This document shows positions 8,796 through 26,875 of a DNA stretch of 40,021 nt, in pieces; position 1 is the stretch's first letter; each line of letters begins with the position of its first letter. The notes beneath the pieces were generated by a model. That model was not told the DNA's origin. It did not search any database and saw only the letters and a list, made by a program, of their open reading frames with translations. Location of the stretch: positions 11,040 to 51,060 of the forward strand of contig JAHELV010000002.1 of NCBI GenBank assembly GCA_024644015.1, given 5' to 3'. Source of the stretch: Nitriliruptorales bacterium (GTDB lineage Bacteria; Actinomycetota; Nitriliruptoria; Euzebyales; JAHELV01). Position numbers and translations under genes: made by a program.

Positions 8796-9401
8796 GTGCG
8801 GATTGTCGTCGTCGGTGCCAGTGGGACGCTGGGTACCGCGGTCGCCGCGGCGCTCGGGCAGGACGGTCAGGGCCACGAAGTGCTCGAGGCATCTCGCAGC
8901 GGCCGTTTCACGGTGGATCTGACCGAGGCCGGCTCGATCGAGGCGCTCTATCGCACAATCGGTCCGGTGGACGCGGTCGCATGCGCGGCCGGCGTCACAC
9001 CGTTTGCCCCGATGTCGGAACTGACCCTGGATGACTTTCGAGCCGGACTGCACGACAAGCTGCTCGGGCAGGTGGAGCTGGTTCGTCGCGGTCTCGAACA
9101 CGTCAACGACGGCGGCAGCTTCACGCTGGTCAGCGGCGTCCTCGCGTACGACCCCATCGTCACCGGCGTGGTCGCTAGCACCGTGAACGGCGCTGTTGAC
9201 GCGTTCGTCCGCGCGGCTGCGATCGAGTTGCCGCGTGGACTTCGCATCAACGCGGTCAGTGCGACGGTGTTCGAGGAGGCGTGGGACGCCTACGGCTCGT
9301 ACTTTCCTGGCTACCGTCCCGTGAGTATCGCTGACGCAGCTCGGGCCTACGTCAAGTCCGTCGAAGGCGCGCAGACCGGTCAGGTCTACCGCGTCTCCTG
9401 A
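8796..9401 (+). CDS. Short-chain dehydrogenase-like protein (PRK07578-type, no YxxxK)
   Basis: A 201-residue NAD(P)-binding Rossmann protein. The dinucleotide motif is VVVGASGTLGTAVAAAL near the N-terminus, followed by VDAVACAAG, FTLVSGVLAY and RINAVSATVFEE. Where classical SDRs have Tyr-x-x-x-Lys, this protein reads STVNGAVDAFV, so both catalytic residues are missing. As I recall, the small PRK07578 subgroup shows the same ATVNGA sequence, so this is probably a family trait. The C-terminus (AYVKSVEGAQTGQVYRV) fits that subgroup. The GTG start has AGGAAGGA 7 nt upstream. It may be a reductase with another proton donor or a non-enzymatic NADP sensor; its substrate is unknown. Confidence 0.85.
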   Translation: MRIVVVGASGTLGTAVAAALGQDGQGHEVLEASRSGRFTVDLTEAGSIEALYRTIGPVDAVACAAGVTPFAPMSELTLDDFRAGLHDKLLGQVELVRRGLEHVNDGGSFTLVSGVLAYDPIVTGVVASTVNGAVDAFVRAAAIELPRGLRINAVSATVFEEAWDAYGSYFPGYRPVSIADAARAYVKSVEGAQTGQVYRVS

Positions 9402-18733: not shown

Positions 18734-19246
18734 TCAGCTGGGCCAGGACTCCGGCAGCTGCCGCTCGTGCCAATCCCCGTCGCCGTCACCGGTCGGCTCA
18801 CCACGGTCCCATTCGGACCAGTCGAGCTCCTCGTCGAGCACATCGCCGGCCGGGTCCTGCGCCAGCGCGAGCTGCAACGCCGAGGCGTCGTCGGGCGTCT
18901 CGATAACCGTCAGCCGGCCCTGGTCACTGTCGAATGTCATCAGTCCCACGCGGGTCCAGCGTCCGTCCTCGTCGGGCAGCCACGCCACGGCCGCCGGGGT
19001 GTTCTCGACGCGCGCGTGTGTGAGGACCACGGCCGGCGAACGTTCCCAGACGGCCTGCAATTCCTCCGCCAGCGCGTCGAGGCCCTCACCGTTGATGTCG
19101 GGCACTTCGGCGTCGCTGGAGACGAACTCGAAGATGGCGTCGAGATCTCGAGCGTTGTATGCCTCGACAAAGGCATTGCGGAGTGTCTCGATGTCCGCGT
19201 CGTCCAGGTCCGGCCCCGCGTCGTCGTACGTCGGAATGTCGCTCAT
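18734..19246 (-). CDS. SnoaL/NTF2-like protein with acidic C-terminus
   Basis: A 170-residue protein with an NTF2/SnoaL-like cone fold: LRNAFVEAYNARDLDAIFEFVSSDAEVPD is the classical first helix and strand, followed by VVLTHARVENTPAAVAWLPDEDGRW and GLMTFDSDQGRLTVIE. It is unusually acidic and its C-terminal 40 residues (Asp/Glu/Trp-rich, DWSEWDRGEPTGDGDGDW) look disordered, which suggests binding to a basic partner. The gene is first in the operon with the SWIM and DUF6493-like genes (gap of 18 nt). Such domains serve as enzymes or as small binding modules; which one applies cannot be told. Confidence 0.72.
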   Translation of the reverse strand: MSDIPTYDDAGPDLDDADIETLRNAFVEAYNARDLDAIFEFVSSDAEVPDINGEGLDALAEELQAVWERSPAVVLTHARVENTPAAVAWLPDEDGRWTRVGLMTFDSDQGRLTVIETPDDASALQLALAQDPAGDVLDEELDWSEWDRGEPTGDGDGDWHERQLPESWPS

Positions 19247-19451: not shown

Positions 19452-20612
19452 TCACGCGGCGACACGACCGGTGGAGCGGCCGTCGAGCTGGGTCAGGACA
19501 TCGACCTCCCGTTGCATGGCGTCGCTCATGGCGAGGTGGAGCCGCCGCAGCTCGTCCAGCGTCCAATTGAATCCTGCGACGGCATCCGTCACGTCGAACA
19601 TCGGGATCGACAGGTCGCTGCGCACGCATTCGTAGTGCGCGAGGGCATGCGCGGGCTCGACCGCGCCGGTCAGGACGCGGTCGAGGGCGTTGGCCAGCAG
19701 TTCGGCGTCGCGGAGCGCGTCGGTGATGCCGTGAGCGGTGATCGGGTCCTTGAAGTAGCCGGCGTCGCCGACCAGCGCCCACCCTGTGCCCCAGGGGCGG
19801 CGCAGCCAGCCCCGCGTGCCGGGGAAGCCGCGTACGGGCTCGACGCGCCGGCCGGCCGCGACGCGCTCGGCAAGCGCCGGCGCGGCTTCCGCCAGCACGC
19901 GATGGAGTCCGCCTTCGAGGTCGTACCGCAGCTCGTCGGCGAACCGTCGGGTCGGCGCTGCGGCGTACACGCACACCTGTCCGCCGCCGGTGGGTATGAG
20001 CCCACCGGCGGTGCCAGGTTGGAAGCACCACTCGTAGCCTGCGGTGTCGACGCCCGTCCAGTAGCCGTAGATGGCTGAGGCCGAGCTGGTGCCGTGGCGG
20101 GTCACGGGAGCGTGGACCTCTCGGGCGACCAATGAGCGGCGGCCGTCGGCGCCCACGGTCACCCGACCGTGGATCTCCGCGCTGTCGCCGTGCTCGTCTC
20201 GGACGCGGACGCCGGCGACACGTTCGTCCTGATCCCAGAGCAGACCGCGGACGTCGACGCCGAAGCGGAACGCCGCGCCACTGTTCTCGGCAGCAGCCAC
20301 GAGAACCGGGTCGAGCAGCGTGCGCCGAGGCGCGTACAGCTGGCGCGACACGTCCAGATCTACACGGTCGTCGCCGTAGTGGAACACGACACGATCCTGA
20401 CCCGGCGTGCCGGCTGCGACGATGGCATCGAGCAATCCCCACCGTTCCAGCTGCAGCACGCCCGGTCGCATCAGCGCGTGGGTCGACAGCGTGTCGCTGC
20501 CACGCCGCGCGCGGTCCAGGACCACTACACGCCACCCGGCACGCGCCAGCAGCAGTGCGGTGCTCGCGCCTGCCGCTCGTGCGCCAACGATGACGACGTC
20601 GTAATCGTTCAT
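19452..20612 (-). CDS. FAD-dependent oxidoreductase (PHBH/geranylgeranyl-reductase fold)
   Basis: A 386-residue flavoprotein of the p-hydroxybenzoate-hydroxylase-like fold. The N-terminal FAD motif is VIVGARAAGASTALLLARAG (GxRxAG variant), the DG motif is VGADGRRSLVAREV, and the GD motif is WALVGDAGYFKDPITAHGI. The C-terminal helices lack membrane anchors. It could be a monooxygenase or a reductase of isoprenoid or aromatic double bonds. ATG 20612 has GAGGGAGA 7 nt upstream; longer frames run into the osmC gene in another frame. It follows osmC by 95 nt, with a strong stem-loop in the gap, and is probably the second gene of the osmC operon that carries the TetR-type palindrome. Confidence 0.85.
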   Translation of the reverse strand: MNDYDVVIVGARAAGASTALLLARAGWRVVVLDRARRGSDTLSTHALMRPGVLQLERWGLLDAIVAAGTPGQDRVVFHYGDDRVDLDVSRQLYAPRRTLLDPVLVAAAENSGAAFRFGVDVRGLLWDQDERVAGVRVRDEHGDSAEIHGRVTVGADGRRSLVAREVHAPVTRHGTSSASAIYGYWTGVDTAGYEWCFQPGTAGGLIPTGGGQVCVYAAAPTRRFADELRYDLEGGLHRVLAEAAPALAERVAAGRRVEPVRGFPGTRGWLRRPWGTGWALVGDAGYFKDPITAHGITDALRDAELLANALDRVLTGAVEPAHALAHYECVRSDLSIPMFDVTDAVAGFNWTLDELRRLHLAMSDAMQREVDVLTQLDGRSTGRVAA

Positions 20613-20635
20613 GGTTGTCTCCCTCGTGCCCCGGC

Positions 20636-20666
20636 GACGGCCGGCCGGCTCGGCAGGCCGGCCGTC
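20636..20666 (-). terminator. Strong GC stem-loop between osmC-like and FAD oxidoreductase genes
   Basis: GACGGCCGGCC and its exact complement GGCCGGCCGTC form an 11-bp stem with a 9-nt loop in the gap between the two minus-strand genes. No T-run follows in the direction of transcription, so this is not a classical intrinsic terminator. It may be a partial terminator, an RNA-processing or stability element that sets the ratio of the two products. The hairpin is seen directly; its function is a guess. Confidence 0.4.
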
Positions 20667-20707
20667 ACCAGCACGCCGAAAAACAGGCCCTCCTTCCTGC
20701 CTGGCGC

Positions 20708-21286
20708 TCAGCCCGTTTCGACCTGGATGTCGACCGGGACACCGTTCGTCACGATGTCGTACACCGCCGACCTGGCGCGGGACTGCTCGACGACCTGGCG
20801 CAGTTGCTCGTCCGGCGCGTCGCCGGCGATCCGGAAGCCGACCCGGATCTGCTCGTAGCCGTTGCGGACCTCGTCGGCCAGCCCGAGCAGCCCGCGCAGA
20901 TCGATGTCTCCCTCCAGGCGGGACTCGACCTGCGTCAGGGAGATCCCGCGGGCGGCAGCGATGTTGGCGATGCCCGCGGTCAAACACGCGGCCAGACCGT
21001 GCAGGACGTACTCGACCGGGCTCGGTGCGTTGTCCGACCCGGTCAGCACCTCGGGGTGGTCTGCGTCGGCAACGTAGGCAGCCTTGTGCTGCTGCTCGGC
21101 GCCGACACCGAAGAACCCGTCGATGGTCGTGCGGCTGTGGGTGCCGCTGACCCACCGGTTGACAGCCCGGAACCGGAACTGCGCCGCCTCGGGCTGGCCT
21201 TTGACGGCGTCGATCGTCGCGAACAGCGTCGGCACGTCGACCCCGTTGCGCGGTGGGCGGGCCTGTGTTGTTGATGCAGAGCTCAT
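20708..21286 (-). CDS. OsmC-family protein (single conserved Cys)
   Basis: A 192-residue OsmC/Ohr-type protein. Family members reduce organic or fatty-acid hydroperoxides with a reactive Cys pair. The first Cys is present: Cys101 in SPVEYVLHGLAACLTAGIA. At the second position the protein has Ser173 (ARSAVYDIVTN), so no intramolecular disulfide can form; this is common in the YhfA-like branch of the family. The N-terminal extension of about 40 residues (TLFATIDAVKGQPEAAQ) contains a helix found in that branch. ATG 21286 has AAGGGAA upstream. A TetR-type palindrome lies 27 nt before the start, so it is probably controlled by the TetR protein encoded at 23534-24148. Confidence 0.87.
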   Translation of the reverse strand: MSSASTTQARPPRNGVDVPTLFATIDAVKGQPEAAQFRFRAVNRWVSGTHSRTTIDGFFGVGAEQQHKAAYVADADHPEVLTGSDNAPSPVEYVLHGLAACLTAGIANIAAARGISLTQVESRLEGDIDLRGLLGLADEVRNGYEQIRVGFRIAGDAPDEQLRQVVEQSRARSAVYDIVTNGVPVDIQVETG

Positions 21287-21312
21287 GACCTTGTTCCCTT
21301 CACTCCATGCGG

Positions 21313-21328
21313 TCGGTCGATCGACCGA
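21313..21328. promoter_or_regulatory. TetR-type operator in front of osmC-like gene
   Basis: TCGGTCGATCGACCGA is a perfect 16-bp palindrome, 27 nt upstream of the osmC-like start. The identical 16 bp form the core of the 20-bp palindrome at the tetR promoter (24163-24182). Two copies of the same palindrome inside one gene cluster strongly suggest binding by the TetR protein encoded there. I cannot see a clear -10/-35 pair here. Confidence 0.72.
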
Positions 21329-21371
21329 TATCCAGGACAGACGGGTACTCCTCTCCCTCGTGGTGACATCG

Positions 21372-23522
21372 CTACAACAGCTCGGCGATCATGGCAGCGG
21401 CGCGCTCCGCGCCGCCGGTTTCGACCGGTCGGACGTCGACGTCGCGACCGATCTCGATGGCGATGGCGTCGGCCAGTGCGTCGGGATCGGTCGCGGCGTA
21501 GTCCATGCACCTACCCGCGCCGTACTGATCGAGGCGGTGGCGTACGTGGTAGGTCTGCTCGAAGTGGTGGGCCAGCGGGAAGTACAGGAACGGCCGTTGC
21601 GCGGCCGTCAGTTCCATCGTGGTGGTCAGACCACCCTGGACGATTGCCAGGTCGCAGACCGACAGGTGCCGGTGGAGGTCCGAGACGTAGCCACGGATGT
21701 CGAGTCCGGCGCGCGTGGGGAGCCGCGCCGGGTCGATGCGAGGGCCAGCGACCACGACCATTCGCAGCCCGGGGACGACCGAGCTGGCGATTGGAAACGC
21801 GGCGATCGCCAATTCCAGCAGCGCCGTGCCGACCCCGGATCCGCCGACGGTGACGAGGCAGATCTGTTCGTCAGGACCGTAGCCCAGGTCTTCTCGCCAC
21901 TGCGTCCTCTGGTCCGGCGTGGGTGGGGTGAAGCCGGTGATGTAGCCGGAGAAGTCGAAGTGGTCCTGCGTCCAGTCCCTGATCTTGGGCAGGCCCGGGC
22001 CGAACACATCGGGTACGACGTCCGATGCGTTGCCCACGAAGATCGCCCGGTCGCGGATCCGCGGAAAGCGATCGATGTGCTCGATCATCTCGGCGTTGTA
22101 GTCGGCGGTCAGGTACGCCTCGTGCTCGCCGCCGTCGGGCATCGGCAGGTAGCCCACGAAGTCGGTCAGCCAGACATGCGAGCTCCGCTTCAGCTCCGGG
22201 TTCTCATGCCAGAAATGGTCGACGTCCCACGCCTCGTCGCCGAGGACGAGGTCGTAGAGCCCGTCCTCGACGACTTCTTGGAACAGCATGAAGTTGGCAA
22301 CGAGGATCTCGTCCATGCGCCGCAGCGCCTGGAAGCAGTGCAGGTCGTGACCGGCGGCTTCCGAGGCGATGTGGGCGGATTCGGAGGCGAGCCAGGCACT
22401 CGCGGGATGGATGGTCTCGCCGGCCGCCTCGACAACGTCGATGACGGGCTGCTGGGTCAGCCAGTCGATCTGGATGTCGGGGCGGTGTGCGCGCAGCTGC
22501 TCGGCGATGGCCAGATCCCGGCGTGCGTGACCCAGTCCGATCGGCGACGACAGATACAGGACCTTCGTGCTGCGTCTCGCGCCGCGCGTCCAGACGTGGC
22601 GAGGCAGCGCTGCGGCGTCGGGCGATTGAGCGCGACGAGTCGGCGTCTGTGGCGATCGCCGGACCCGCTCGACGAACTGCGTGATCGCACGATTGACGAT
22701 GACGGGATCCCGTGCGAGGGGAATATGACCGGCGCCTTCCAAGACGATGAGTTCGCCGTCGGTCGCCGCCGCGAGTGCCTCGCCGCGAGCCGGTGGGCTG
22801 ATGCGGTCGTCGCCGCCGTGGATCACCAGCACCGGGCTGTTCACGCGGGCGCACCACGCCAGGACCGTTTCGGGGTCGGCGATGGCAGCTCGCGCGTCGG
22901 TCAGCAGGACCTCCGGCGTGGTCTCCAGCGCCCAGCCGACCGTGTCCTCGCGCTGCTTGGTCGAGTGGGCCTCCGGGAAGCACTGCGCGAAGAAGAACTC
23001 CGCGAAGTCGCGGTAGTGGTGTCGCCAGTAGTGGGCGTTGTACTTCTCCCAGCCTCGCGGGTCCTCGATCTCGTCGTAGAACGTGTCGACGCTCTTGGCG
23101 CGGGCGCCGGTTGGGGCCGCCAGTGAGATGGTCGGGTCGATGAAGACTTGACCGAGCACCCGCTCGGGGTGATCGGCCGCGAGCTGCAAGGACCAGCTCG
23201 CGGCCTTGGACAACGACACGACCACGGCCTGGTCGGTACCGCTGGCGTCAAGGACCGCGAGCGCAGCCCCGGCTTCGGCGTTTAACTGGTACGCGGCAGG
23301 ATCGAGCGGTCGGTCGGACCGGCCGTTGCCGGGTCCGTCGAACACGACCACGCGGTAGTGCCGGGCCAGGTACGGCACCTGCGCCTTCCACAACCGGCTG
23401 TGCACGATCGTCCACGTGGGCAGCAGCAGCAGCGTCGGCGAACCGGTCCCGTAGACCTCGTAGCCGATCCTGACGCCGGCCTGGTCGACGTGGCCCTGCA
23501 CGTCAGGCGCTCTCGCTCGCAC
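21372..23522 (-). CDS. Alpha/beta-hydrolase fused to UDP-glycosyltransferase-like domain
   Basis: A 716-residue two-domain protein. Residues 1-290 are an alpha/beta hydrolase: GVRIGYEVYGTGSPTLLLLP, VVFDGPGNGRSDRP, a nucleophile elbow VVSLSKAAS with Ser105 (the usual flanking glycines are Ser and Ala), IHGGDDRISPP for the acid and GAGHIPLA with His266. After a linker of about 28 residues, a GT-B-type glycosyltransferase starts at 319: KVLYLSSPIGLGHARRDLAIAEQL, then VTVGGSGVGTALLELA and the UGT-like donor site VQGGLTTTMELTAAQRPFLYFPL. No stop or frameshift lies between the domains. GTG 23522 has AGGAGGAG 5 nt upstream, 11 nt after the tetR stop, so it is co-transcribed with its likely regulator. 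The protein may hydrolyse an ester or lactone and glycosylate the product; substrates are unknown. Confidence 0.85.
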   Translation of the reverse strand: MRARAPDVQGHVDQAGVRIGYEVYGTGSPTLLLLPTWTIVHSRLWKAQVPYLARHYRVVVFDGPGNGRSDRPLDPAAYQLNAEAGAALAVLDASGTDQAVVVSLSKAASWSLQLAADHPERVLGQVFIDPTISLAAPTGARAKSVDTFYDEIEDPRGWEKYNAHYWRHHYRDFAEFFFAQCFPEAHSTKQREDTVGWALETTPEVLLTDARAAIADPETVLAWCARVNSPVLVIHGGDDRISPPARGEALAAATDGELIVLEGAGHIPLARDPVIVNRAITQFVERVRRSPQTPTRRAQSPDAAALPRHVWTRGARRSTKVLYLSSPIGLGHARRDLAIAEQLRAHRPDIQIDWLTQQPVIDVVEAAGETIHPASAWLASESAHIASEAAGHDLHCFQALRRMDEILVANFMLFQEVVEDGLYDLVLGDEAWDVDHFWHENPELKRSSHVWLTDFVGYLPMPDGGEHEAYLTADYNAEMIEHIDRFPRIRDRAIFVGNASDVVPDVFGPGLPKIRDWTQDHFDFSGYITGFTPPTPDQRTQWREDLGYGPDEQICLVTVGGSGVGTALLELAIAAFPIASSVVPGLRMVVVAGPRIDPARLPTRAGLDIRGYVSDLHRHLSVCDLAIVQGGLTTTMELTAAQRPFLYFPLAHHFEQTYHVRHRLDQYGAGRCMDYAATDPDALADAIAIEIGRDVDVRPVETGGAERAAAMIAELL

Positions 23523-23533
23523 GATCGCTCCTC

Positions 23534-24148
23534 CTACTCGTCCGCCTCTTCCGCGGCGCGGATCAGGGTCCCGATCTTGCGCAGCGCCGCTCGGTTGGGC
23601 ATCTCGTCCTCGGACATTCCAAGGAGGATCATGGTCTCGGCCCCGAGGAATGCGATCCCGACGAGGGTGGCCACCTCTTGGGGCTCGAACGGACCGAGGC
23701 CGCCGGCCTCGACGGCAAACCGGTGCGTGATCCCCTCCAGCAGTCGGAACCACCCGTGCAGGTACGTCCGGACCGCGCGCGCGACCTCGGCGTCGGACCA
23801 TCCAGCGGCCGTCATCTCCTGGAGCACCCGGACGTAGCCGGAGGCAAGGTCGTCCTCGAGGAAGTCGCAGGCCTGCTCCCACTGCTTCCACAGTGGCTGG
23901 TCCGCGCCGTACATCGACGTCTGCCGTTCGAGACGCTGCGCGTTCTCGGTCTCGAGCAGCGCCAGCACCAACTGCCGCTTGGAACCGTAGTGGTAGTGGA
24001 TCTGGCTCAGCGGCACCGCGGCCCGCTGGGCGATGCCTCGCGTCGACAGCGCCGCGTAGCCGCCCTCGAGCAGCGAGTGCTTGGCCGCGGCGAGGATCCG
24101 CTCGGCCGTCTCGCCGGATGGCGGTCGGCGGGGGGCGTCGGATTGCAT
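23534..24148 (-). CDS. TetR-family transcriptional regulator
   Basis: A 204-residue repressor. Residues 14-60 form the TetR helix-turn-helix: AERILAAAKHSLLEGGYAAL, TRGIAQRAAVPLSQIHYHYGSKRQLVLALL. The rest is a ligand-binding and dimerisation domain with aromatic and hydrophobic residues, ending EEADE. ATG 24148 follows the operator and promoter; an in-frame ATG at 24184 lies inside the -10 region and cannot be on the transcript. A consensus-like promoter with a 20-bp palindrome precedes it, so it likely represses itself, the fused hydrolase-glycosyltransferase gene 11 nt downstream, and the osmC operon through the second palindrome. The inducer is unknown. Confidence 0.9.
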   Translation of the reverse strand: MQSDAPRRPPSGETAERILAAAKHSLLEGGYAALSTRGIAQRAAVPLSQIHYHYGSKRQLVLALLETENAQRLERQTSMYGADQPLWKQWEQACDFLEDDLASGYVRVLQEMTAAGWSDAEVARAVRTYLHGWFRLLEGITHRFAVEAGGLGPFEPQEVATLVGIAFLGAETMILLGMSEDEMPNRAALRKIGTLIRAAEEADE

Positions 24149-24162
24149 GTTCAGGGCATTCC

Positions 24163-24182
24163 GTTCGGTCGATCGACCGAAC
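24163..24182. promoter_or_regulatory. 20-bp palindromic operator at tetR promoter
   Basis: GTTCGGTCGATCGACCGAAC is a perfect 20-bp palindrome lying 14 nt upstream of the tetR ATG. It overlaps the end of the -10 box and the predicted transcription start (about 24173), the right position for steric repression. Its central 16 bp recur exactly at 21313-21328. Confidence 0.8.
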
Positions 24183-24208
24183 ATAGCCGACCTCTCGGCC
24201 GCAGTCAA
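24180..24208 (-). promoter_or_regulatory. Sigma70-type promoter of the tetR operon
   Basis: On the minus strand, TTGACT (24208-24203), a 17-bp spacer and TATGTT (24185-24180) match the housekeeping -35/-10 pattern closely. The palindromic operator begins inside the -10 box. This is the clearest promoter in the window. Confidence 0.75.
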
Positions 24209-24318: not shown

Positions 24319-25302
24319 TCAGCCGGCTGCGGGTCGTGAGAACCGGTTGCGGTAGTCGGTCGGGGTGACGCCGACGAGGCGTCGGAATGCCCGATGGAAC
24401 GTCTCGACGGTGAGGAAGCCGCAGCGGCGGGCGATGCCCGCGACACCGTCGTCGGTTTGTTCCAGCAGGCGCCGGGCCGCGTCGATGCGAACGCGTTCGA
24501 CGTACCTGCCGGGACTGACGCCGACCTCTCGGGTGAACAGGCGTTGAAAGCTGCGCTCGCTCATTGCCACATGGTCCGCCAGCGCGTGGACCGACAGGTC
24601 CGTGTCGGGGTGATCGGCGATGTGGGCCAGCAGGTCGGTCATCGTCGGGTGTGACGACCGCTGCGCGGCGAGGTGGGTGCTGTACTGCTGTTGGCCACCG
24701 GCACGCTGCAGGTACACGACGAGATGGCGCGCGGCGCGCGCGGCGATCTCGCTGCCGTGGTGCGTACGCAGGAGCTGCAGCGCGAGATCGATGCCCGCGG
24801 TGACGCCCGCGGAGCTCCACACGCCGTCGTGGAGGTAGATGCGGTCGGCGTCGACGTCGATCGTGGGGTGCGCCGTGGCCAGCAGCCCGGCGAGCGCCCA
24901 GTGGGTCGTCGCGCGGCGGCCGTCGAGCAGGCCCGCCTCGGCCAGCAGCAGCGCGCCCGTGCACACCGAACCGACCTCGCCGCTGCGCGCTGCCAGGTCG
25001 GCGAGCTCGGCGACGAGCACCGGGTCGCTGGCCGCCGCCTCGATGGCGAGCCCGCCGGCGACGAGCAGCACGTCCGGCTCGAGGTCGGGATCTGACAGCG
25101 CGCGGTCGGCGTGGATGGTCGGCCCGCTCGCGGTGCGCACCGGTCCGGCGGCTCGGGCCGCGATCTCGACGGTGTACGGCGGCCGCTCCTCACCGGCCTC
25201 GGCGGCGAGGTAGTTGGCGAAGTAGAAGACGTCGGCTGGCCCGAAGACGTCCAGGCCCTGCACGTCATCGAACACGACGATGACGACCGATCGCTGCCGC
25301 AT
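24319..25302 (-). CDS. DJ-1/PfpI-AraC transcriptional regulator (GlxA type)
   Basis: A 327-residue regulator with two domains. Residues 1-190 resemble a class I glutamine-amidotransferase-like (DJ-1/PfpI) domain: VVIVVFDDVQGLDVFGPADVF, VLLVAGG, and GSVCTGALLLAEAGLLDGRRATTHW with Cys114 at the nucleophile elbow. Residues 220-320 form the AraC double helix-turn-helix (HALADHVAMSERSFQRLFTREVG and GIARRCGFLTVETFHRAFRR). Such proteins sense small metabolites and usually activate neighbouring genes. ATG 25302 starts the conserved core; the frame is open upstream to 25368. It is transcribed away from the DUF2182/DUF1326/DmdA-like operon across a 158-nt gap, so that operon is its most likely target. 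Confidence 0.88.
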   Translation of the reverse strand: MRQRSVVIVVFDDVQGLDVFGPADVFYFANYLAAEAGEERPPYTVEIAARAAGPVRTASGPTIHADRALSDPDLEPDVLLVAGGLAIEAAASDPVLVAELADLAARSGEVGSVCTGALLLAEAGLLDGRRATTHWALAGLLATAHPTIDVDADRIYLHDGVWSSAGVTAGIDLALQLLRTHHGSEIAARAARHLVVYLQRAGGQQQYSTHLAAQRSSHPTMTDLLAHIADHPDTDLSVHALADHVAMSERSFQRLFTREVGVSPGRYVERVRIDAARRLLEQTDDGVAGIARRCGFLTVETFHRAFRRLVGVTPTDYRNRFSRPAAG

Positions 25303-25398
25303 GACGTCATGATCCTGTGGCCGCGCCTTGACGTCAACGCAGTTACGGTGACGATTTGCGCCACGCACGTGGCCACCCGGGACGGGTCCGTATTTTCG

Positions 25399-25428
25399 TT
25401 GGTCGTCGTGGTCGTCATCCGTTAGCGT
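25399..25428 (+). promoter_or_regulatory. Possible promoter of the DUF2182-DUF1326-DmdA-like operon
   Basis: TTGGTC (25399-25404), an 18-bp spacer and TAGCGT (25423-25428) form a fair -35/-10 pair, with a start expected near 25435 and the ribosome site at 25450. A TAGCGT -10 also occurs upstream of the lactate dehydrogenase gene. Confidence 0.4.
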
Positions 25429-25460
25429 CTCGGACGTCGCCGATGCAACGAGGAGTGACG

Positions 25461-26240
25461 ATGGTCTCCGCCGTCCCGCTGAGCTCGGCTCAGCGAGCGG
25501 TGCGCACCGTCACCGATCCTTGGGTGGCGTTCTTCGGCATCGTCCTGGCCGCGTGGTTGGCGCTGGCGGCGTTCGCGTCGAACGGCGGACCGCTGCAACA
25601 CAGCTCCGCCGGCGGGCACGGCACGCTGGTCGGGCTCGTCGCCATGTGGGGTCTGATGTCGGTGGCCATGATGGCGCCCACCTCTGTTCCGTTGCTGGTC
25701 ACCTACCGCGGTCTGACGAACAAGCCTGGGGTCGGCGGGGGTCGGCGCGGCTTTGCGGCGCTCGTCGCGGGGTATCTGGTCGTATGGGTGGGGTTCTCGG
25801 TGGTCGCGGCGTTCGGGCAGCACAGCCTTGCGCTGCTCGGTGTCGTCGATCACGCCGGGCGGCTCGTGTCAGCGGTGGGGACGGCCGGGGTTCTGGCGGC
25901 GGCCGGTGCCTATCAGTTCAGTGGCCTCAAGCAGGCCTGCGTCAGTCAGTGTCGGACACCGTTGTCGTTCTTCCTCTCCTACTGGCGGTCCGGAGTGGAT
26001 GGTGCGTTGCGGATGGGTCTCAGACACGGCGTCGTCTGCGTCGGATGTTGCTGGGCGCTGATGCTGCTCGCCTTCGTCGGTGGCGCCATGAACCTGGCTT
26101 TCATGGGGATGGCGATGGTGCTGATGGTGGTCGAGAAGTTGCCGATCGGCCGGGTGCTGACCCGTCCGATCGGCTTCGCGCTGCTCGCCGGCGCCGGGGG
26201 AGCACTCCTCGGCGTCGTCAACCTGGGAGGTTCACTGTGA
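25461..26240 (+). CDS. DUF2182 membrane protein (predicted metal-binding)
   Basis: A 259-residue membrane protein with six or seven helices. The DUF2182 marks are present: WGLMSVAMMAPTSVPLL, GAYQFSGLKQACVSQCRTPLSFF, and HGVVCVGCCWALMLLAFVGGAMNLAFM followed by EKLP. The Cys and Met residues in these helices could bind copper or another soft metal; this is an inference. ATG 25461 has GAGGAG 5 nt upstream. Its stop overlaps the DUF1326 start in a GTGA. The DUF2182-DUF1326 pair is widespread and the two probably work together; the biochemical role is not established. Confidence 0.88.
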   Translation: MVSAVPLSSAQRAVRTVTDPWVAFFGIVLAAWLALAAFASNGGPLQHSSAGGHGTLVGLVAMWGLMSVAMMAPTSVPLLVTYRGLTNKPGVGGGRRGFAALVAGYLVVWVGFSVVAAFGQHSLALLGVVDHAGRLVSAVGTAGVLAAAGAYQFSGLKQACVSQCRTPLSFFLSYWRSGVDGALRMGLRHGVVCVGCCWALMLLAFVGGAMNLAFMGMAMVLMVVEKLPIGRVLTRPIGFALLAGAGGALLGVVNLGGSL

Positions 26241-26875
26241 CGACGATCGAGACGCGCAAGCGGCGCACCGAGACATGGGCGATCCAGGGTGAGCTCATCC
26301 TCAACTGCAGTTGCACGGTGTTCTGCCCCTGCGTCGTCTCGCTCGGGAACCACCCTCCGACCGAGGGCACCTGTCAGGCATGGGCCGGCGTCCGAATCGA
26401 CCGGGGCCACGCTGGAGCCACCGATCTGTCTGGACTGAATGTGGCGTTGCTGCTGGACATCCCCGGAGAGATGTCCCGCGGCAACTGGACCGTCGCGGCG
26501 TGGATCGACGAGCGGGCAGACGACGACGCGTTCGGCGCGCTGGAGGAGATCTTCAGCGGCCGGGCCCGGGGCACCACGGGGCTGTTCTCGATCCTCGTCA
26601 GCACGTTCCTGGGTGCCGAGCGGGCGCCGGTGACGTACGAGACAAACGGGCAGCGCAGGCGTCTCACCGTCGGTCGGAAGATCACCGGCGAGGTCGAGCC
26701 GATCGCCGGCGCCGACGACTCCGAGCCGGTGATGGTGACCAACACCGGTTACTGGATGGGCGCCGACGTGGTCGTCGCGCAGGCCACCCAGTCGCGCGTG
26801 CGCGCCTTCGGCCGGGTGTGGAACTTCGTCGGCCGCAGCGCGGAGATCTGCTCGATCGACTGGTCGGGCCCGTGA
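26237..26875 (+). CDS. DUF1326 Cys-rich protein
   Basis: A 212-residue soluble protein of the DUF1326 family. The N-terminal motif WAIQGELILNCSCTVFCPC has four closely spaced Cys (C-x-C and C-x-C separated by four residues), a likely metal site. PPTEGTCQAW, the RGHAGATDLSGLNVALLLDIPGE-like segment and LEEIFSGRARG follow and are typical. GTG 26237 overlaps the DUF2182 stop by 4 nt and has GGGAGG 6 nt upstream. The DmdA-like gene begins 37 nt downstream on the same strand. Its role is not established; copper or heme delivery to the DUF2182 membrane partner is a guess. Confidence 0.88.
   Translation: MTTIETRKRRTETWAIQGELILNCSCTVFCPCVVSLGNHPPTEGTCQAWAGVRIDRGHAGATDLSGLNVALLLDIPGEMSRGNWTVAAWIDERADDDAFGALEEIFSGRARGTTGLFSILVSTFLGAERAPVTYETNGQRRRLTVGRKITGEVEPIAGADDSEPVMVTNTGYWMGADVVVAQATQSRVRAFGRVWNFVGRSAEICSIDWSGP

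Follow-up and report, generated by a model that had tools for sequence, protein, structure and literature searches.

The window analyzed here, a stretch of 40,021 nucleotides (nt) from the Nitriliruptorales bacterium assembly GCA_024644015.1 (contig JAHELV010000002.1, positions 11,040 to 51,060), contains four co-directional genes for a TetR-family regulator (tetR), a hydrolase-glycosyltransferase fusion, an OsmC-like protein (osmC), and a flavin adenine dinucleotide (FAD) flavoprotein. A palindrome overlaps the tetR promoter and recurs ahead of osmC. An earlier note on this DNA, made from the letters alone, had taken the four genes and the two sites for an inducible TetR regulon. Domains were assigned by Pfam and NCBIfam profiles with their respective cut-offs.

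The regulator gene (23534..24148, minus strand) encodes a TetR/AcrR-family protein of 204 amino acids with the recognition helix PLSQIHYHYGSK. Its N-terminal helix-turn-helix (HTH) matched PF00440 (E = 1.3e-10; 41.3 bits versus a cut-off of 24), and the structural model had a TetR fold with an all-helical C-terminal domain (predicted local distance difference test, pLDDT, 91.6). All NCBIfam TetR equivalogs scored far below their cut-offs, and identification as an ScbR-type gamma-butyrolactone receptor was rejected on the same grounds (NF041196, 39.1 bits versus 150). The fusion gene (21372..23522, minus strand) is a 717-codon frame whose GTG start lies 11 nt past the tetR stop codon. That gap bears GGAGGAG, and the two genes form one tight operon. 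The encoded protein consists of an alpha/beta hydrolase (residues about 1–290) and a GT-B glycosyltransferase (about 318–717), and its AlphaFold model (pLDDT 89.9; predicted template modeling score, pTM, 0.90) showed one disordered linker at 293–315. The hydrolase domain matched PF00561 (4e-20) with the triad Ser106/Asp240/His267. Across 18 fusions compared, Asp240 and His267 were invariant and the nucleophile was Ser106 in 14 and cysteine in the remaining 4. By both sequence and fold, the solved structures nearest to this domain were Est816, PcaD, and arylesterases. The glycosyltransferase domain combined a GT-B fold with Glyco_tran_28_C; its nearest folds were OleI (2iya) and CalG1 (3otg), and in sequence it had weak matches to bacterial UDP-glycosyltransferases and MurG. 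Macrolide inactivation, with an esterase and a macrolide glycosyltransferase in one chain, was also considered and set aside as a distant analogy, because both domains fell far under the NCBIfam cut-offs: the hydrolase reached about 28 bits where EstT/EstX macrolide esterases require 450 and 600, and the glycosyltransferase 25.1 bits where the MGT subfamily requires 260, though its fold resembles 2iya.

Downstream, osmC (20708..21286, minus strand) encodes 192 amino acids with an OsmC domain (PF02566, 6e-19; 68.8 bits versus 27.5) and a single cysteine, C101. The closest solved chain was 2opl (E = 2e-48), and C101 is conserved both there and in the sister species (locus L013). The last of the four genes (19452..20612, minus strand) specifies a FAD_binding_3 flavoprotein of 386 amino acids (PF01494, 3.7e-29; 102.5 bits versus 22), which did not reach the geranylgeranyl reductase family (TIGR02032, 84.7 bits versus 158.8). 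An orthologue of this flavoprotein (41% identity) adjoins the fusion in locus L097. The 95 nt between the two genes (20613..20707, minus strand) can fold into a strong stem-loop of about -55 kcal/mol (z = -2.8), and the sister species has one in the same place with a different sequence (L057, about 9308–9380; z = -2.9); an attenuator or mRNA stabilizer is possible. Anti-phage defense and phage origin were both rejected, as PADLOC gave no meaningful match and PHROGs matched only generic esterase.

The palindrome was found exactly as the earlier note had described it. Operator 1 (GTTCGGTCGATCGACCGAAC; 24163..24182, no strand) is a perfect 20-bp palindrome on the -10 box of the tetR promoter (24180..24208, minus strand), which comprises TTGACT (from 24208), a 17-nt spacer, and TATGTT (to 24180) and is the region's best match to a promoter. 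The operator and the 3' end of the -10 hexamer have 3 bases in common, and 14 nt separate the operator from the tetR ATG (24148). Its 16-bp core, TCGGTCGATCGACCGA, lies at 24165–24180 and again, without mismatch, at 21313–21328. This second copy (operator 2, no strand) begins 43 nt past the stop codon of the fusion (21372) and ends 26 nt ahead of the osmC ATG (21286). The two exact copies, 2.9 kb apart, are the only ones in the whole assembly of 4,002,003 bases, so the palindrome is not frequent elsewhere in the genome; base composition predicts about 0.001 exact occurrences of this 16-mer per genome. With 2 mismatches allowed, 6 further places were found, compared with 1 for a reversed control.

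We then examined the operator in relatives. Full-length relatives of the fusion (47–73% identity) were present in metagenome-assembled genomes (MAGs) or isolates of Actinomycetota, SAR324, alpha- and betaproteobacteria, Rokubacteria, and Chloroflexi, and in many of them a TetR 42–80% identical to that of the window (P0002) was encoded directly upstream. The palindrome precedes orthologous TetR genes in Actinomycetota, in SAR324, and in MAGs of beta- and alphaproteobacteria. Judged against dinucleotide shuffles, it was detected upstream of TetRs with an SQI-type helix at 17 of 22 loci (p <= 1/300), with mainly a shifted version at the rest. In most loci the operator directly adjoins a promoter of the layout TTGAC-17-TANNNT, and in the alphaproteobacteria with a QYH helix the operator lies in or near the promoter spacer. 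A pairwise comparison of the window with the sister species gave the operator as the longest run of identical letters in each of the two intergenic regions. The second operator, too, stands before osmC and the FAD gene in that species (L013:8852), where its 16-bp core and position are kept and the flanks have diverged. Genome G014 belongs to a different family within the order and carries tetR and the fusion with a variant operator on one contig; on another contig an exact operator (L058:3508) is followed by genes for a methyltransferase, an OsmC protein (45% identical), a flavin monooxygenase, and a major facilitator superfamily (MFS) protein. Within the genus the operator is accompanied by OsmC and FAD genes, and one other family has such genes with it in altered form. 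Second operators were also seen in G039 and G048, before a methyltransferase gene or a pair of small-protein and methyltransferase genes, and in L005 (one mismatch) before a gene for a secreted protein. The cluster and both of its sites are conserved in relatives, and neither outcome that the earlier note had named as refuting its proposal was observed.

A blind search with the pattern TTCGGTCGNNCGACCGA was made across a sample of 396 genomes of the phylum (Actinomycetota), 15 of which gave matches. The palindromic AT center was found in 6 (G000, G014, G034, G035, G218, and G393), each of which has the module, with the match lying before TetR or, in G014, before the methyltransferase-OsmC run. 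As the fusion itself is present in 27 of the 396 genomes (26 of 246 genera), the inclusion of all 6 among its carriers has a hypergeometric p of 5.7e-8. GG-, CG-, or TG-centered versions occurred in 8 genomes, all lacking the fusion and with sites not near the module, and were regarded as background; the AA-centered match in G039 came from a genome with the module. Orthologues of the TetR were encoded in 9 genomes, and 8 of these also had the fusion. The ninth, G077, had a truncated TetR at a contig edge with no fusion after it.

The recognition helix and the operator changed together. TetRs with the helix SQIHYHF pair with TTCGGTCG-NN-CGACCGAA, the SQIQYHF proteins of four alphaproteobacterial loci with TTCGTTCG half-sites, and the one TetR bearing SQIRYHF with TTCATTCG / AATTCATTCGAACGAATT. 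In a single further case, that of the divergent TetR of L106 (NLSLVHYHF), the palindrome of the divergent intergenic region is imperfect and differs from these. A separate, unrelated TetR subfamily (TETR2, helix NHGLVHYYF) precedes the same fusion at eight loci, and sites resembling TTAGTCA-NN-TGACTAA were found at six of them (L093, L094, L096, L100, L101, and L103). A weaker site of this kind accompanies the Deinococcus plasmid copy (L083), whose TetR was tried as this regulator and rejected, being 32% identical, TETR2-like, and without this operator. Regulator and operator thus appear to have been swapped together around one enzyme. Since helix type and operator change together, the local TetR probably reads the palindrome, and the covariation would be hard to explain otherwise.

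Footprinting by sequence comparison, co-occurrence, and this covariation strongly support the regulon proposed in the earlier note, and on these comparisons TetR very probably acts on both sites. The ligand-free TetR dimer would bind the palindrome at -10/+1 of its own promoter and keep tetR and the fusion gene off, and would also bind the copy before osmC, silencing both that gene and the one for the flavoprotein. Release of the dimer would come from a small and probably hydrophobic ligand. The Ser(or Cys)-Asp-His domain may then hydrolyze an ester or lactone and the GT-B domain glycosylate the exposed group, while the single-cysteine OsmC protein and the flavoprotein could deal with by-products or with the same compound in its oxidized or peroxide state. 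We infer binding, repression, induction, substrate, reaction order, and the roles of OsmC and the flavoprotein. As a whole, an autoregulated TetR module with a ligand-induced hydrolase-glycosyltransferase is the explanation that we favor and consider reasonably probable. The chances that the module serves to detoxify or tailor an ester, lactone, or aglycone are about even; the earlier note had suggested such chemistry on a hydrophobic compound, which fits the best reading and is still conjecture. Within the module, tetR and the fusion are the core, and OsmC and the flavoprotein are accessories that vary by lineage. The four genes of the original proposal were all verified, though this division was not part of it and its interval misses a neighboring gene pair described below.

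Several observations weigh against this account. In many fusion loci the regulator is of another kind (TETR2 or BTAD) and OsmC or FAD genes are missing, and the similarities of the fusion are at superfamily level, below every NCBIfam cut-off, such that no named family is claimed for it. No resolving cysteine was found in the OsmC protein, where RSAV[YF]DIV stands at the expected position in the window, L013, and L058; with C101 alone, the thiol-based peroxide reduction that the earlier note ascribed to OsmC is weakened and unproven. A promoter search of the region turned up no -35/-10 pair at the osmC site that was convincing, so the operator there could act inside one long transcript. As the four genes are co-directional, they may equally well form a single transcript that has an operator inside it or two operons; of the earlier claim of one inducible unit in two operons, the unit is supported and the two operons are not preferred. 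Finally, co-occurring genes include glgE/glgX and methyltransferases, and for this reason an endogenous metabolite could serve as substrate instead of a xenobiotic.

Beyond tetR, on the plus strand, lies a pair of genes that bears on these alternatives. The first (25356..26240) encodes a PpoB2/DUF2182 membrane protein, a putative copper chaperone (PF09948, 3.8e-57; 193.7 bits versus 28.7). It is the sole copy in the genome and lies 1.2 kb from the tetR operator. The second (26237..26875) overlaps the end of the first and encodes a DUF1326-like cysteine-rich protein with the motif CSCTVFCPC, similar by Pfam to the DUF1326 proteins that L026 and L017 encode. PpoB2 is encoded in 15 of 61 related genomes and is absent from the sister species (G001, L013). 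No more than about 5 kb separates the DUF1326-PpoB2 pair from the fusion in the window as well as in L017, L020, L022, L026, L095, L097, and L102, that is, at 8 of about 50 loci from several phyla, against an expectation of about 0.05, a rough estimate that ignores shared ancestry among the alphaproteobacterial cases. No operator was found before the pair, so any link would be functional instead of regulatory, and the pair is a probable functional partner of the fusion as judged by this proximity.

Four other explanations were weighed; our confidences in them overlap in part and need not sum to one. In the first, which we hold to be on the unlikely side, the role is endogenous and not detoxification: the fusion would release and re-glycosylate a metabolite, storage or signal molecule, such as a carbohydrate or signal lactone, sensed by TetR. 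In favor of it, the fusion has glgE and debranching-enzyme-like genes as neighbors in Cellulomonas, Naasia, and an Acidimicrobiia MAG, and the weak full-length similarity of TetR to ScbR (39 bits versus 150) and of the hydrolase to an N-acyl homoserine lactone (AHL) lactonase would fit signal-lactone chemistry. However, the sporadic distribution of the fusion across genomes and genera looks like that of an adaptive accessory, as do TetR autoregulation, regulator exchange, and the MFS, methyltransferase, and flavin monooxygenase partners. A copper-linked role, in which the module and the DUF1326-PpoB2 pair would handle a copper-dependent phenol or quinone product or a copper-binding small molecule, seems distinctly unlikely. 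The rarity of PpoB2 set against its frequency near the fusion, the position of the genome's only copy, and the finding that Marinomonas PpoB2 passes copper to the tyrosinase PpoB1 (PMC2855505) speak for it; most fusion loci are without the pair, however, and neither the missing operator nor the sister species lacking PpoB2 agrees with it. We consider it very unlikely that TetR controls the tetR-fusion operon alone, with the osmC operator a recent duplicate or remnant and OsmC and FAD genes fortuitous neighbors. Most fusion loci do have one operator and no OsmC or FAD gene, and the osmC site has no clear promoter, but conservation of the core and place of this site between diverged flanks in the sister species argues otherwise, as do the exact operator that heads the methyltransferase-OsmC-flavin monooxygenase-MFS run on a contig separate from tetR in the other family, the OsmC gene adjoining the fusion in the BTAD-type loci L068 and L070, and the FAD orthologue in L097. 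It is scarcely credible that the palindrome arose by chance or is a generic CGATCG-rich element with no connection to TetR, for although such palindromes can be frequent in high-GC DNA and 8 genomes of the phylum sample hold GG/CG/TG-centered versions unrelated to the module, exact AT-centered copies track the module in 6 of 6 cases and covary with the recognition helix.

The favored module can be placed alongside known systems. Autoregulated TetR repressors of the KstR, EthR, EilR, QacR, and TtgR type, which neighbor an enzyme or efflux operon, likewise have an HTH with an all-helical ligand domain, a palindrome at their own promoter, and adjacent co-directional targets, but the operator TTCGGTCG-NN-CGACCGAA and the hydrolase-glycosyltransferase target match no family scanned. 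With Est816 (by its structure entry title, an AHL-degrading esterase), PcaD, and the arylesterases, the hydrolase shares its fold and Ser-Asp-His positions at about 20–26% identity; it differs in being fused to a glycosyltransferase and in scoring below the PcaD cut-off, and in the fusion family the elbow is often without G-x-S-x-G and some members have a cysteine nucleophile. The glycosyltransferase has the GT-B fold and a predicted C-terminal nucleotide-sugar region in common with OleI, CalG1, YjiC, and MurG, whereas its best phmmer E was only 5e-5, it falls below the MGT and MJ1255 cut-offs, and, compared with natural-product GT-B enzymes, the fusion has its own highly conserved N-terminal motifs, SSPIGLGHxRRD and ExWDVDHFWHE. 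The OsmC protein shares PF02566 with the OsmC/Ohr proteins (2opl subgroup), its lone cysteine setting it apart. PpoB2 (COG5486) with DUF1326 shares PF09948, but its genomic partner here is the hydrolase-glycosyltransferase module, and the characterized protein serves PpoB1. TetR-controlled enzyme operons are known; the families and literature searched contained neither this operator nor this fused enzyme or set of partners. The earlier note had known of no system with this composition, and we too found no description of the operator sequence, the fusion, or the gene set in the open-licence literature searched, which is weak evidence of absence.

We tentatively propose, as a possibility somewhat short of even, that a widespread, sporadic two-step enzyme, which would hydrolyze an ester or lactone and then glycosylate it, under interchangeable local sensors (two TetR subfamilies that differ in their operators, or BTAD regulators) and with single-cysteine OsmC, flavin oxidase, methyltransferase, and DUF1326-PpoB2 partners, constitutes a new ligand-inducible pathway for inactivation or tailoring of a hydrophobic lactone or phenolic compound. 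The module would represent a sensor-operator pair with a natural specificity switch at one helix position, serving a fusion family that is spread over several phyla. With operator and regulator defined, a ligand screen that uses a reporter can be turned to finding the substrate, and an anonymous fusion becomes a testable pathway, possibly a new glycosylation-based route of resistance or tailoring.

Finally, we note variation in gene content around the module. In the window, a gene for an AraC-family regulator with a DJ-1/PfpI domain (24319–25308; FtrA-like, below cut-off) lies between tetR and the PpoB2 gene. On the other side, about 200 nt past the FAD gene and on the same strand, is a gene for a SnoaL-like protein (18734–19246), which is not conserved there in L013. 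L005, L007, and L013/L057 have an additional, free-standing hydrolase domain encoded between tetR and the fusion, two whole fusions stand in tandem in L010 and L070, and in L020 the hydrolase and glycosyltransferase are separate genes. The gene glgE was found beside the fusion in L006, L007, L016, L024, and L025, some of which also have the debranching-enzyme-like gene; loci of this type are those of Cellulomonas, Naasia, and the Acidimicrobiia MAG and hint at a carbohydrate link there. A different layout is conserved in L067–L070 and runs from a BTAD regulator through a CMD/AhpD-like gene, OsmC (in L068 and L070), and an isoprenylcysteine-methyltransferase-like membrane protein to the fusion.

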